Below are positions 1 through 23,400 of a stretch of 64,000 nucleotides of DNA, one piece after another. A model generated the notes under the pieces. The model had not been told where the DNA came from, ran no database searches, and saw nothing but the letters and a program-made list of their open reading frames with translations. Each line of letters begins with the position of its first letter. Position 1 is the stretch's first letter. The stretch comes from Plumapathes pennacea (lineage: Eukaryota; Cnidaria; Anthozoa; Antipatharia; Myriopathidae): positions 25,059,863 to 25,123,862 of the forward strand of contig OZ038462.1 of the NCBI GenBank assembly GCA_964036295.1. The letters run 5' to 3'. A program made the position numbers and the translations under genes.

Positions 1-613
1 CGATAAGCTGTGTACCAGACGCAAAATATCTTAAAACACAATCAGAAAGAAAGGCAAACACACAAACATGTAAAAAAAAAAAAAACAAAAAAAAAAAAAC
101 AACAACATTGCAACAGAGAGAAGACGACAGTACAACTTTATACACACCCTTGTCAGGCGGAGTTGATCCTTCATTCCTGGTAGATCTATATCCTTCGCTT
201 CGTCCTGTAACTTTGGATCTTGTGTTGTGAGCCATTCATCTACGTCGTTACAATCCGCTCTCCATCGCTTCACTCGCGCGCGGCTTTCATCGTCAAAGAC
301 GGAAAAGTAGTCGTCATCCGGAGCGCTGTACACCTGGACATCCTGCTGAACCAACTCTACCGCGGGCTCAGGCATCATGATACTTGCCTACAAGTCATCA
401 GAAACAAAAGATCAACAAATTTGTTGTGTTGACTGTTAAAGTAGATATTTGTTCCATCTTACGTCTGGCTGATCCATTGCACGCCTCCTTTCTTCTCTCT
501 CCCGCTCCTCTTCTTCCTCGCGTCTCCTTCGTTCCTCTTCTTCCTGTTCTTTCCGTTTTTCTTCTGCCCTTCTGTACTCTTCTTTCTCCAGAGCTGCCAG
601 GGTTTCTTCCAAC
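1..613 (-). CDS. Start of rod super-repeat unit 6 (type B), cut by window edge
   Basis: Exons 463-613 (151 nt) and 148-387 (240 nt) repeat the two-exon start of unit 4. The first gives the Glu/Arg-rich helix, the second the acidic insert (QVYSAPDDDYFSVFDDE) and WRADCNDVDEWLTTQDPK. Bases 1-7 are the first seven nucleotides of the next exon (coding CTTATCG), recognised by matching 8,561-8,567 and the following CTG acceptor. A few substitutions separate 148-387 from 8,706-8,945, and flanking intron sequence is also conserved. The rest of the unit and the protein C-terminus lie outside the window. Confidence 0.85.
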
Positions 614-2437
614 CTGGCGTGGTAGACAAAAACCGACGAGTTAAAATTTAAGAAAAACTAATAAATAAACTTTCAGCAAAAGATCCGCTCACTTGTCTTG
701 ACGTTCGTTCAAATGCTTGTTCACCGCATCCCATCGCTGTGACAGCGCGTTTGTTGTCTTATCGACTCCGTCTATGTCTACTTTGTCCAGATGACCTTCA
801 TCAACCAGAACTTTCCTGTCCACGAACAAAGATTGCACTGTGGGCTCACATTTCTTAACGTCATTGAGGAATTTCTGCAAAAAGAAAATACACAGCAAAG
901 ACATTATACGATGTCCATCAGTGGTCGCGTGATAGATACAATTGCCTATACAGTTTCTTTTCCCCACCACCAAATAAATGAAAAAAAAAAAAAAAAAAAA
1001 AAAAGAAAGAAAAAGAAAGAAAGAAAGGGAACAAGTAAATGAGCAGATATAACTACAGTCAAAGCTTTAAAGTATAATAAAAAAGGTCGTGGGAGAAAGT
1101 GCAACAGACTTCGGCTTCAATCAAGCCCACTCGATAAAGCAAGATATGAATTTTGAAAAAGCTATAGCTACTGTTACTGTAATAAAATGTGAGGCCGGAC
1201 TAGTTATACTGGTAATAGCCCCTAATATATCAATAGTAAGGTATTAATATTGCCAAGTAGTAAAATCTAATAATGCTAAAATAACTAGTACCTATTTTAG
1301 CATTTGGTAGTATTAGTAAAACCTAACATGCTAACTCTGACGACGATATAAATCACATTAAAGTTCACAGCTTCAATTCAAATTTGAGTCGTTTCTCACC
1401 TGGTTATCCTCTAGCTGCAGCTTGACGAAAGGAATGTCCGTGCTGATTTTATCCTCATTCTTCATGTGAGTTTCAAACTCGACCAAGTCTCGATCGACTT
1501 TCTCCGCCTTCTCGCGCCACTCATCAAATTTGGTGTACTCTCCCTGTATACTGCGTGCAAGGCTCTCCAACCTATAAATCACAATTTCAGATTTGTCAGA
1601 AGAAAGTCTGGATTTTAGAACTTAAAAAAATCGAAAAGCAGCTTCAGAGAACACAGGCGAAAGATCTGAGACAGAGAAGATATTTATAGTCCACTGGGAA
1701 ATCAGACGTTTTACACTGCCCCGTTAATTTAGTTGGAACTGGCGTTGTTTGCACCGCGGAAATACGTTCTTGACGTCACTTCCGTTGTTCAGGGTTTGTC
1801 GCCACGGCTATCTAACTTTTCTAACTCGAGGTGTAATTTCACATCGTGTGCATGCCTCGTTTTTCTTATGCACAACTTATGATACAAAAAATGCATTGAA
1901 CTAACTTATGGCTGAAAATCAAGTATATTTAGTATTGAGTCTCTTGGGTAATTCTTGAGTTTTACGAGCGTTACAATGAACTATAAAATCTACACTTGAA
2001 TCCACAGCTTTTTGTGCAATGACCGCTGACTCAAAAGCGTGGTGGCCGCACGGCCATGTCGGTGTTGTTTCAAATTTTAAATATTTAAACAATTCTGATA
2101 GCTAATCTTACATGCTATTACAAAATCTGAAAGGTAGCTATAACATACTCTATAATCAATCAAATTATTTGGAAGATACGACTAACCTCAATTCTTTTTC
2201 GATCACTTCGATATTCAGTGTGTTCCAGCGACCGTTCAGTCCATGCATTCCGTCCTCGACTTTCTTAGTTTGATTGGCATCCAGAAGTCCACTGCGGAGG
2301 GCCTGGTCACCAACTGACATGACGTCATCAGCGGGTGGTTGTTTTGCAGAAACTTCTGCCATCAGTTCCTGAGAAAGACAACAAATGTGTTTACAAGTTT
2401 GTTTCACATTTTACAAACAGACATAAGTTCTTATAAT

Positions 2438-20400: not shown

Positions 20401-23400
20401 TGTCTGCGTCGTTTCGTGTTCTATGTGACATGATAAGCTGGTCGACACTGTCCATCATCTTCTAACCTACCTCTTGCTCAGCGTCGGCTTCATCCTTCAA
20501 TTTGTTTTCTGATTTTTGTAACGACTTGGCAAACTTGCTCGACACTTCTTTCCATTCGTCCACGTATTCATTTTGCCGCTTCTGCTGATCTCGTATCTTG
20601 CTCAGATTACTAAAGGAAAAATATTTTGAAAGTTCAAACCTCTAACAGATATTCCTCACAAAATCAGAACGGCATGTTTAATATTTTCATAAATAAGCAT
20701 GCAATTAGAAACCTCGCACGTGTACAAATCTATCATTCTGGCTACTTTAACTGCAGTCCACTTCCCAGCATTCCATTTTTCATACCTGTCCATGCGCTGT
20801 CTGATCTTGCTATTCAAAGCATCCCACAGTTCCTCGCAGACGTGGGCTTCCGTCTGCAGGGACACTTTATCTTCCGGGGAGGTGAGAGGATCTTTGACAA
20901 GTTTGTAAGCTCCATTCGTGGCAGCAGCGAACGTGGGCTCATATTCAGTGACGTCACTGGATAACAGCTAAGGCAGGTGAAAAAAAAAAAGAGGGAAAGA
21001 AAGAAAAAGACGTCATTAATATTGGAAGTAGTTTCCTGCGTATGGTAGGGTACATCTTATCATCAGTTGACACTATTGTTAAATTTTCACCTTCAACTGT
21101 TCTCTGTCCTTTGTCAAGGTCTCCATGTCCTCTGGAGTCTGATCAATTGAATCCAACTCGCCATTCTTGTCGTCGATCCAGTCCTTCACGGCTTGAAGAT
21201 TGGCGTGGCACGTTGCAAGCTCTTGCGCCTTCTTTTCTTCTTCGTCCAAAATCTTTACATTTAGTCTGAGAAAGGACAGCAGCAAAGATAATTAGTCTCC
21301 CATAATCTTTACAACGCTTAGCTTCTGTTTAGCTTTGTGGTTCCGGGATCGGCAACTTTGTACTTGGACGGAGCTCTCAGTTCTTGTTTATTCTTATGTA
21401 ATGCAAATTAACATCTGGGCCCGGTTCTTCAGAGTCGATAGCGCTCTTCACCGGATAAGTCGCTATCCAGCGGATACGCCCTTTTAAAGGGGCAGTGTTA
21501 TGAGATGCGCATGCCCACGAGTTTGATTGAATCTTGAAAACGTTCGCCCAGTGTTTGAAATCCAACCAAAGGATAGCGCTATCCACTCTTTCAGCAACTA
21601 GGCTCAGTTAACTTAGTACGTAACACAATTTGTGGCATTCTAAACTAACGGAGATACAAGTGATGACCTGTTATTCTTTTCCTTCAGTAAGATCATGAAG
21701 TTATCCCAGTTGTCTTTCAAGTCTTCCATGTCCCCACTTGCGGTCTTTTTATCTTCTTCCGTCACGTTTGGGTCAGCGGCGATATTGTCGAATGCCTCCG
21801 CCACGTTCTGATATCGAGGCTCATAGACGGGTAACTCCCTCTCGATTTCCTGCGAACCAAGTGCGGATTTGAGTTGAATGGAATTGTTTGGAAAATTAAA
21901 ATACCCGGAAAGCAGTTTTTCTGACAAAAAGTTTCGTCTTCTCTGTTTGAAAAGCCACTGATCTTATTATATAGTGCTTCAAATTCAATGAAGAAACTCT
22001 TCAGGGAAAGAACGGAATGTATAGTTCCTGTAAGAACGTTTTAATCTGCATCGGCGTAGAGAAAAAAACGCGATTGTTCATGCAGATAAGCTTAGCGCTT
22101 AGCGCCCATCGCGTGTACCTTTATCTGGCATCGTTGTTCCTTCAGCTCGCTAATGCCTGCGTCATCAGGCTCCCTCCTCAACTTTGGTTCATTTGTTTCA
22201 AGCCACTCTTCTACGTCATCGTAATCTTGTCTCCAAGTGTCCAGTGAGTCGCTAGGTACACCGGCTTCAAGAGAGCTATCCTCCACTACAGCCACCACCT
22301 CTACTGCGCGCCTTTGCTCTTCTTCCTCCTCAAGTCGTTTCAACTTCTCCTGGAGCCTTAAAGAGAATAATGTACTCCATATTACTCTATATTCTCTGTG
22401 ATAGGTTCAACAGAAGGAAATAGAGAAAAACACTTAGATATTGATGAGGCGGCATGCACCAGAGCTGGTCCGTTCCACGATTGGCACACTTCGGAGCTTA
22501 TATCATTGTAAATAATCATACTTTTATATCAATAAAACTATTAGTGATATACACCGTCCTTATGCCCTCTTGATAAACTCTCTCTTGACCAAATTGTGTC
22601 TGTGAGATTTTTAGCGCTCGTTTGTATGTGTTTTCAGTTTTTTTTTTTTTTTTTTTTTTTGCTTTTTTGCTTTTTTGCTTTTTTGCTTTTTTGCTTTTGT
22701 TGCATCGAGCTTACCGAAGTTTTCGTAGCGCAACATAATCCTTGATTCTGTCCCAGCGATTTATTAACAAGGTCAACTCTCCATTGACTTCGTCTCGCTT
22801 GCTCTTGGATAGTTTGTCGTCATGAGTAATGCTTTCACCCAGAGAGAACGTCTCGGCCATTTCAGGTGCTTGGACGTCCACTTCCTTTTCAAACACCTGT
22901 AAAGTACACACAGAGTAATTACACACAAAAAAAGTAAGGTTTCTTTACTTAAACCGGCCGTAAGTAATTCAGCACAGCTGGTGGGGCAGTGTTTCAAACT
23001 GAACGTAAATTTCTTAAAAATCCCAACTGGTCGGAGGCTAATAAGTTGACTATTTATATAGCGTGGCCAGAGATTTGAACTCGGGGATATCGTGTTGCAA
23101 ATTCAGCTAATAGTCAGAGCGAGACTTGAACCTGGGGCTGCTGGATTTTAAGCTTGTTGCCCTAAACCACTCGGCGTCTAAATCCGGCTCCCTAACTACT
23201 CGACCACACTGCCTCCACATTGAGATTAAACTCCTTCCCTGTGGCTTTTTCTCTCACCTCGAGTTTTTCTTGTTGATATTTCACCCCTTCTAATGAAGTC
23301 TCCAATGGATCATCCAAAGCGGAACGTTGCATCTCCAGACTATCCAACGCAAGATTTGCGCGTTCAGAGGAAATGCGCCATTTGTCCAGTGTATCCGTCT

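Follow-up and report, generated by a model that had tools for sequence, protein, structure and literature searches.

A very large spectrin-repeat gene of Plumapathes pennacea, grown by tiered block duplication and resembling the N-terminal half of dystrophin

A 64,000-nt stretch of contig OZ038462.1 of Plumapathes pennacea (C1:25,059,863-25,123,862; hereafter the window) contains, on its minus strand, the first part of a giant gene encoding tandem calponin-homology-type (CH) domains followed by a long rod of spectrin repeats. Our analysis of the window, of the adjoining sequence and of the whole genome indicates that this is very probably a single gene of very large size, from a small family that resembles the N-terminal half of dystrophin, and that it grew by tiered block duplication; we propose an actin tether as its product. 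The modeled rod has 67 spectrin repeats, while the dystrophin rod has 24, and the expectation of a rod far longer than that of vertebrate dystrophin is borne out. This number was reached through tandem copying, first of ten-exon blocks and later of pairs of these blocks. The giant gene is not the dystrophin of this species, which is encoded elsewhere on the same chromosome.

Exon Series and Gene Model

The genome searched comprises 290 Mb in 24 contigs; the 119.5 kb below the window were also read (183.5 kb in total), and negative window coordinates denote the part of the gene beyond the window start. The original prediction, made from the window sequence, described a five-fold tandem super-repeat with base-exact exon lengths in a dystrophin-like rod. 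This exon series is real and extends past the window. A scan for exons of the predicted lengths that have splice sites and an open frame brought back almost the entire series, and a simple gene finder, trained on the scanned exons and run with lowered splice thresholds over a limited range, recovered it again; the latter run left out some first parts and cut short the 172-nt exon of unit 5, which was full (1571-1400) in another run. Unit 1 starts exactly at 22356, and exons 2-10 of units 1-5 measure 182, 175, 182, 139, 119, 166, 182, 172, and 182 nt, both departures listed in the prediction (in unit 2, 127 nt instead of 139; in unit 4, a joined exon of 357 nt) being correct. Over the nine positions of units 1-5, lengths agree in 86 of 90 cases; 20,000 shuffles within units gave 22.9 on average and never more than 48. 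The first part is a single exon of 238 nt in unit 1, 271 nt in unit 2, 286 or 295 nt in unit 3, and 283 nt in unit 5, and two exons (151 and 240 nt) in unit 4.

The five-fold count holds for the full units in the window, but the array in the genome is twice as long: the same gene finder placed five more units after them, the sixth beginning inside the window at 613 and the tenth ending at window coordinate -24935. None of the ten units contains a stop; splice sites are AG/GT save for a GC donor after exon 3 in units 5, 7, and 9; and exons 2-10 sum to 1,499 nt in nine of the ten units and to 1,487 nt in unit 2. The curated model, which lacks exon 1, joins 145 exons into one open frame of 24,896 coding nt (8,297 residues) with no stop before the last codon. 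From end to end it covers 68,738 bp (C1:25,028,465-25,097,202; window 37340 to -31397), with 82 exons fully within the window. Where two forms were possible (286 or 295 nt for the first exon of unit 3, 170 or 182 nt for exon X6b) those fitting the series were chosen, and certain exon boundaries outside the units are a choice among acceptors.

All parts named below are on the minus strand. The actin-binding domain (ABD; 33864..37340) is encoded by eight exons of 62, 96, 78, 93, 107, 84, 116, and 113 nt and is recognized by the Pfam CH model in two stretches (E 3e-44). It is followed by the first spectrin repeat, R1 (33033..33711, exons of 141 and 170 nt), by a single repeat X1 (32174..32775, exons of 142 and 173 nt, with a GC donor), by a hinge-like segment without a repeat (31470..31934, exons of 61 and 68 nt), and by eight single two-exon repeats, X2-X9 (22715..31066, mostly 175 + 182 nt). 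The array then comprises unit 1 (18022..22356), which has ten exons and five repeats, unit 2 (13969..17906), unit 3 (9244..13547), unit 4 (5364..9173), unit 5 (693..4961), and the start of unit 6 (1..613, with exons 613-463 and 387-148 plus the opening 7 nt of a third exon); units 2, 3, and 5 likewise have ten exons each, while in unit 4 exons 3 and 4 are fused. With R1, X1-X9, the 50 repeats of the ten units and the distal repeats Y1-Y7, the model reaches its 67 repeats. The Pfam Spectrin model matches unit 2 in four stretches (E 2.1e-31), the proximal part of the protein (1,449 residues) in seven and the distal part (783 residues) in six. Outside the array only CH and Spectrin exceed the Pfam cut-off, and plakin, SH3, and GAS2 had no match in the proximal and distal parts and one of the ten units.

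A genome-wide search with exons 7-8 of the unit gave at least 24 matches, a lower bound, of which the 20 strong ones all fall in this array (ten units, two exons each) and four weak ones lie elsewhere (E 0.016-0.17). Weak matches with 30% identity at C1:22029691-22029891 and C1:22079977-22080177 (minus strand; E 0.016 and 0.018), 50 kb apart, are perhaps a duplicated spectrin-repeat gene.

Block-wise Descent and the Dimeric Tier

When all 67 repeats are placed in one tree, repeats sharing a unit position (r1-r5, ten copies each) group as a single clade at every one of the five positions, and the six groups require five changes in total, which is the minimum and was reached by none of 200 shuffles. 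This tree has few columns for many rows and long single-repeat branches, and only the result for the classes was used. Since each position class is one clade, whole blocks were copied; with the phase pattern kept throughout, this agrees with the earlier claim that the duplication of whole blocks followed the establishment of the intron pattern. An exchange of single repeats is unsupported, every position class being one clade.

Core identity is 47.7-62.5% in most pairs of units. It is higher between units 4 and 6 (94.6%), 5 and 7 (93.4%), 4 and 8 (82.8%), 6 and 8 (83.2%), 5 and 9 (76.6%), and 7 and 9 (75.8%), and synonymous divergence (dS) is 0.18 for units 4-6, 0.12 for 5-7, 0.53 for 4-8, and 0.62 for 5-9. 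The ratio of nonsynonymous to synonymous divergence (dN/dS, NG86) is 0.11-0.32 in 43 of the 45 pairs, dS not being computable for 3-4 and 3-8; most older pairs are saturated in dS, and their ratios are therefore rough. The units are under constraint, and a decaying pseudogene array is unsupported, as there are no stops and dN/dS is low in all 43 pairs with computable dS.

The unit tree has the form (u3,(u9,(u5,u7))) for units of type A and (u10,(u8,(u4,u6))) for units of type B, some forks falling below star. The first exon is split in all four type B units, exons 3 and 4 are fused in three of these four, and the GC donor after exon 3 is common to type A units 5, 7, and 9. From the tree and these shared exon features it follows that units 3-10 alternate between the two types and that the youngest copies arose as neighboring pairs. 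Units 3-10 thus represent a third, dimeric tier of duplication. Introns align over 59% between units 4 and 6 and 74% between units 5 and 7, over 22% and 12% in the next pairs, and over 0-10% in the others. Neighboring repeats are at most 34.1% identical (66 pairs), whereas repeats of the same class reach 98.3%, with a median of 53.8% (225 pairs).

It is quite improbable that the units were homogenized or built repeat by repeat, through single-repeat duplication or gene conversion. Repeats X1-X9 demonstrate that repeats were multiplied outside the block too, and local conversion is possible between units 4 and 6 or 5 and 7; however, the position classes are all clades with the minimum number of changes, exon fusions, exon splits and the GC donor track the unit types, and the introns of the two closest pairs align over most of their length. 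The close likeness of units 4-5 to units 6-7 could also suggest an artefact of assembly in part of the array, i.e., unmerged haplotypes or a mis-joined contig. We regard this as very unlikely, because dS of 0.12-0.18 and 26-41% of unaligned intron bases in even the closest pairs exceed what we would expect of two haplotypes, and the open frame is continuous through all ten units.

Intron Phases and Growth Point

Between R1 and Y5, which resembles R2 of dystrophin, there are 129 exons, and the inserted length of 22,821 nt equals exactly 7,607 codons. Sixty-one of these exons run from phase 1 to 0 and sixty-one from phase 0 to 2, the other seven being fused or split. The duplications kept the reading frame because the modules have equal phase at both ends. 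In the dystrophin gene of this species, exon R1b has 182 nt (phase 0 to 2), R2a 145 nt (1 to 0), and R3b 183 nt (0 to 0); the giant gene has corresponding exons R1b of 170 nt (0 to 2), Y5a of 145 nt (1 to 0), and Y6b of 183 nt (0 to 0). In our reading, the site of growth was the intron of phase 2 that separates R1 from R2.

Relation to Dystrophin and the Sister Genes

Among all PDB chains, repeats Y5-Y7 match dystrophin first (E 4.1e-16), the best stretch being 452-657, which corresponds to R2-R3. The distal repeats of a short paralog, P1, likewise match dystrophin (E 2.2e-14, stretch 456-660), all else being no better than E 0.037, and a human dystrophin query matches the ABD, R1 (E 0.02) and the distal repeats of the giant gene in order, weakly. 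About 10.9 Mb away, at C1:14.14-14.20 Mb, is the canonical dystrophin gene of the species, which has its own CH domains, R1-R3 and EF-hand_2 match. EF-hand_2 gave five matches in the whole genome at three places (C1:14.195 Mb, C9:5.97 Mb, and C5:18.65 Mb) and none at the giant locus. A human R23-ZZ query against the 183.5 kb reached at best E 0.025, to a spectrin repeat, the ZZ and WW models themselves not being searched. Other CH loci at C9:9.72, C6:5.64, C9:10.85, and C9:2.49 Mb appear by eye to be nesprin, spectraplakin, beta-spectrin, and heavy beta-spectrin, respectively.

The closest relatives of the giant gene are four short genes, P1-P4, at C1:7.57-7.64 Mb, three on the plus strand and one on the minus strand. 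The five genes make up a family with tandem CH domains and a dystrophin-type start of the rod, and four of the five share a tail: in the giant and in P1, P2, and P3 it follows the motif S(F/Y)SDKGY and contains a pair of neighboring cysteines (giant, P1, and P3) or a single cysteine at the same place (P2), and then basic residues. The five ABDs form one clade (99/99), and in an unrooted eight-row tree of R1b-R3 a single branch at 100/100 divides the family from the dystrophins. Over R1b-R3 the dystrophin of this species is 41-43% identical to human dystrophin and utrophin and 30% identical to the giant, and a short insert in R2 is present in the former three and absent from the family. By the p value of the approximately unbiased test (p-AU), the ABD data reject neither a clade of the family with the species' own dystrophin (p-AU 0.36) nor a dystrophin clade (p-AU 0.22); with the combined data the best tree joins the family to the own dystrophin at 63/23, the dystrophin clade again not being rejected (p-AU 0.31).

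The label 'dystrophin-like' is therefore apt for the distal repeats, with their match to dystrophin 452-657, and for R1b and R2a, with phases equal to those of the own dystrophin, but not for the gene as a whole: dystrophin is another gene, the giant belongs to a separate clade with four short paralogs, and WW, EF, and ZZ regions were not found by the searches described above. Nor did the original prediction include the dimeric tier, the charged helices described below, the shared tail or the full length of the array.

How the gene relates to its relatives can be read in several ways. That it is the dystrophin of this species with an enlarged rod, as originally supposed, has very little to commend it: the distal repeats do match dystrophin R2-R3 and the exon phases of R1 and R2 are similar, but a canonical dystrophin with CH domains, R1-R3, and EF-hand_2 exists at C1:14.14-14.20 Mb, the giant groups with the four short paralogs (99/99 and 100/100), and its locus lacks an EF-hand_2 match. 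We consider it equally far-fetched to see in the gene this species' nesprin (KASH) giant, a counterpart of ANC-1, although CH domains with a giant helical rod of long internal repeats are also described for ANC-1 in the excerpt of PMC8139857, and Pfam Spectrin_SYNE1 gave a sub-threshold score (16.1 bits, the cut-off being 35). Against this, another CH locus at C9:9.716-9.719 Mb is nesprin-like by eye, the distal repeats match dystrophin and not nesprin in PDB (whose content of nesprin repeats was unchecked), and the model ends in the tail common to the short sister genes. A reading with a chance only a little short of even takes the family for a recently made, partial copy (5' half only) of the dystrophin of its own lineage, and not for an older gene. 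Both lie on the same chromosome, the R1/R2 phases match, and the two are joined in the best combined tree (63/23) and compatible in the ABD test (p-AU 0.36); yet the own dystrophin is nearer to human dystrophin and utrophin than to the giant over R1b-R3, and shares with the human proteins the R2 insert that the family lacks, although fast change in the family could mimic both points. Possible, but on balance rather unlikely, is that the family descends from a gene with an ABD and a short rod from which dystrophin received its N-terminal half, prior to the fusion of that half with the dystroglycan-binding one, the R1/R2 boundary of one descendant later becoming the growth point of the three-tier array.

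Charged Helices and Proposed Mechanism

When the entire protein was scanned for E-K/R pairs at a spacing of four residues, nine strong stretches stood out (12-20 pairs per 42 residues), and each of units 2-10 carries one of them at its head; the next-best windows reach 8 pairs at most, and unit 1 has no strong charged helix. In the window these stretches lie in the first exons of unit 2 (17636..17906), unit 3 (13253..13547), unit 4 (9023..9173), unit 5 (4679..4961), and unit 6 (463..613), and in the type B units read the charged stretch is followed by an acidic and proline-rich one. Sequences with such E-K/R pairs usually form single alpha helices.

In the proposed mechanism, the two CH domains would bind F-actin. 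In the family, R1 is followed by dystrophin-type R2 and R3, one more repeat and, in most members, the short shared tail; the rod of P1, the sister gene read through, has about four repeats. In the giant gene, two-exon repeats with phase 2 at both ends were multiplied in a first tier; a five-repeat block of ten exons, headed by a charged helix, was multiplied whole in a second; and pairs of blocks of types A and B were multiplied in a third, with unequal crossing-over among similar copies as the most plausible cause. The protein would then be a very long tether from actin filaments to the membrane or another partner at the C-terminal tail, which has cysteines and basic residues and could be lipidated, and the charged helices may serve as stiff spacers between five-repeat springs. 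With a length of about 5 nm per spectrin repeat, the 67-repeat rod would span some 300-350 nm.

Several observations weigh against this account. Neither exon 1 nor the start codon could be located. Among PDB chains the ABD scores highest with plectin (218 bits), followed by beta-spectrin (207), utrophin and dystrophin (205), and MACF1 (198), and its identity is 51.9% to plectin, 51.3% to the own dystrophin, and 50.2% to human dystrophin; the next PDB match of Y5-Y7 after dystrophin is beta-spectrin (E 1.1e-6), mainly through Y7. The grouping of the family with the dystrophins is not starred, either in the ABD tree (81/92) or with the combined data (83/95). The phases of R2b and R3a differ from those of the own dystrophin, Y5b of the giant ending in phase 0 and the dystrophin model in phase 2. 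Unit exons 7-8 reach the own dystrophin just at E 0.033, and the match of R1 is weak (E 0.02); R1 or R2 is thus at most a possible source of the unit repeats. The models of P2 and P3, similar to that of P1, are partial, that of P4 being more so; no tail was found in the partial P4 model. Isoforms skipping whole repeats would remain in frame, and the proposed membrane attachment and mechanics are based on sequence features.

Neighboring Gene and Other Observations

A neighboring gene on the minus strand (~50000-62600) is midasin (MDN1): three joined predicted exons match PDB midasin (best E 1.7e-11), while five Pfam scans with its open reading frame pieces gave no match. Another predicted exon, at window -51617 to -51853 (C1 ~25.008 Mb, same strand), reads like alkaline phosphatase. 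Minisatellites were found at 52189-52830 (period ~20 nt), 63326-63600 (~21 nt), and 48190-48317 (~21 nt), and another, with a period of ~38 nt, occupies 24406-24659 within an intron of the giant gene. A dispersed repeat of ~150 nt and more, mostly 66-88% alike between copies, occurs in introns on both strands (18319-18710, 25272-25483, and 29065-29282) and is perhaps a small transposable element. G/C-rich intron stretches at 34100-34400 and 30020-30338 yield similar odd peptides in translation on both strands and perhaps belong to a mobile element family.

Comparison with Known Systems

No comparable giant appeared among the papers listed in searches of the open-licence literature. ANC-1 and nesprin giants resemble the gene in combining CH domains with a giant helical rod. 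According to the excerpt of PMC8139857, ANC-1 has six tandem 903-residue repeats, almost 100% alike in DNA, with no spectrin-like repeats identified in them; the units of the giant gene, in contrast, are mostly 48-62% alike, consist of repeats recognized by Pfam, and have a dimeric tier, and the gene model shows no KASH domain, a point not covered by a search. In the super-repeats of titin (connectin), as in the giant gene, multi-domain blocks were duplicated whole within one gene (PMC12241362, in the part available). Titin differs in being sarcomeric and built of Ig and Fn3 domains, with one exon per middle-Ig domain in the material cited, whereas the giant has two exons per repeat of symmetric phase 2. 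The same source, within that part, argues that similar neighboring titin domains tend to co-aggregate, so that multi-domain duplication may be favored; by analogy, block duplication would have the same effect in the giant gene. The gene is a clear case of giant rod growth, from single repeats to five-repeat blocks and to pairs of blocks, with neighbors kept dissimilar.

Spectraplakins such as plectin and MACF1, which in cnidarians are treated in PMC9145010 (excerpt), are alike in that the giant ABD scores highest with plectin in PDB. They differ in that a clade of the giant with the plectins is rejected with the ABD data (p-AU 1.5e-5), only CH and Spectrin were found outside the array, and a separate plectin-like ABD locus exists on C6.

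The closest resemblance is to the N-terminal half of dystrophin and utrophin, in the tandem CH ABD, the phases of R1b and R2a, and the best PDB match of the distal repeats. The giant differs from them by its separate clade, some 60 additional repeats after R1, and its own C-terminal tail; unlike the own and human dystrophins it lacks the R2 insert, and no WW/EF/ZZ region was found with the EF-hand_2 and R23-ZZ searches. If it indeed acts as a tether, the giant links actin through a rod with 2.8 times as many repeats as dystrophin, and if its family predates the fusion, it is a natural experiment in maximum actin-tether length. According to PMC10293626 (excerpt), the structure of dystrophin is already complete in cnidarians, probably as the outcome of a fusion involving a spectrin gene, and PMC1790709 (excerpt) reports that no extant proteins of the N-terminal architecture were found that could point to its source. 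The family described here consists of present-day proteins with a dystrophin-type N-terminal half, in which no dystroglycan-binding half was found, and the proposed fusion origin of dystrophin (PMC10293626, PMC1790709, both as excerpted) therefore becomes testable by phylogeny.

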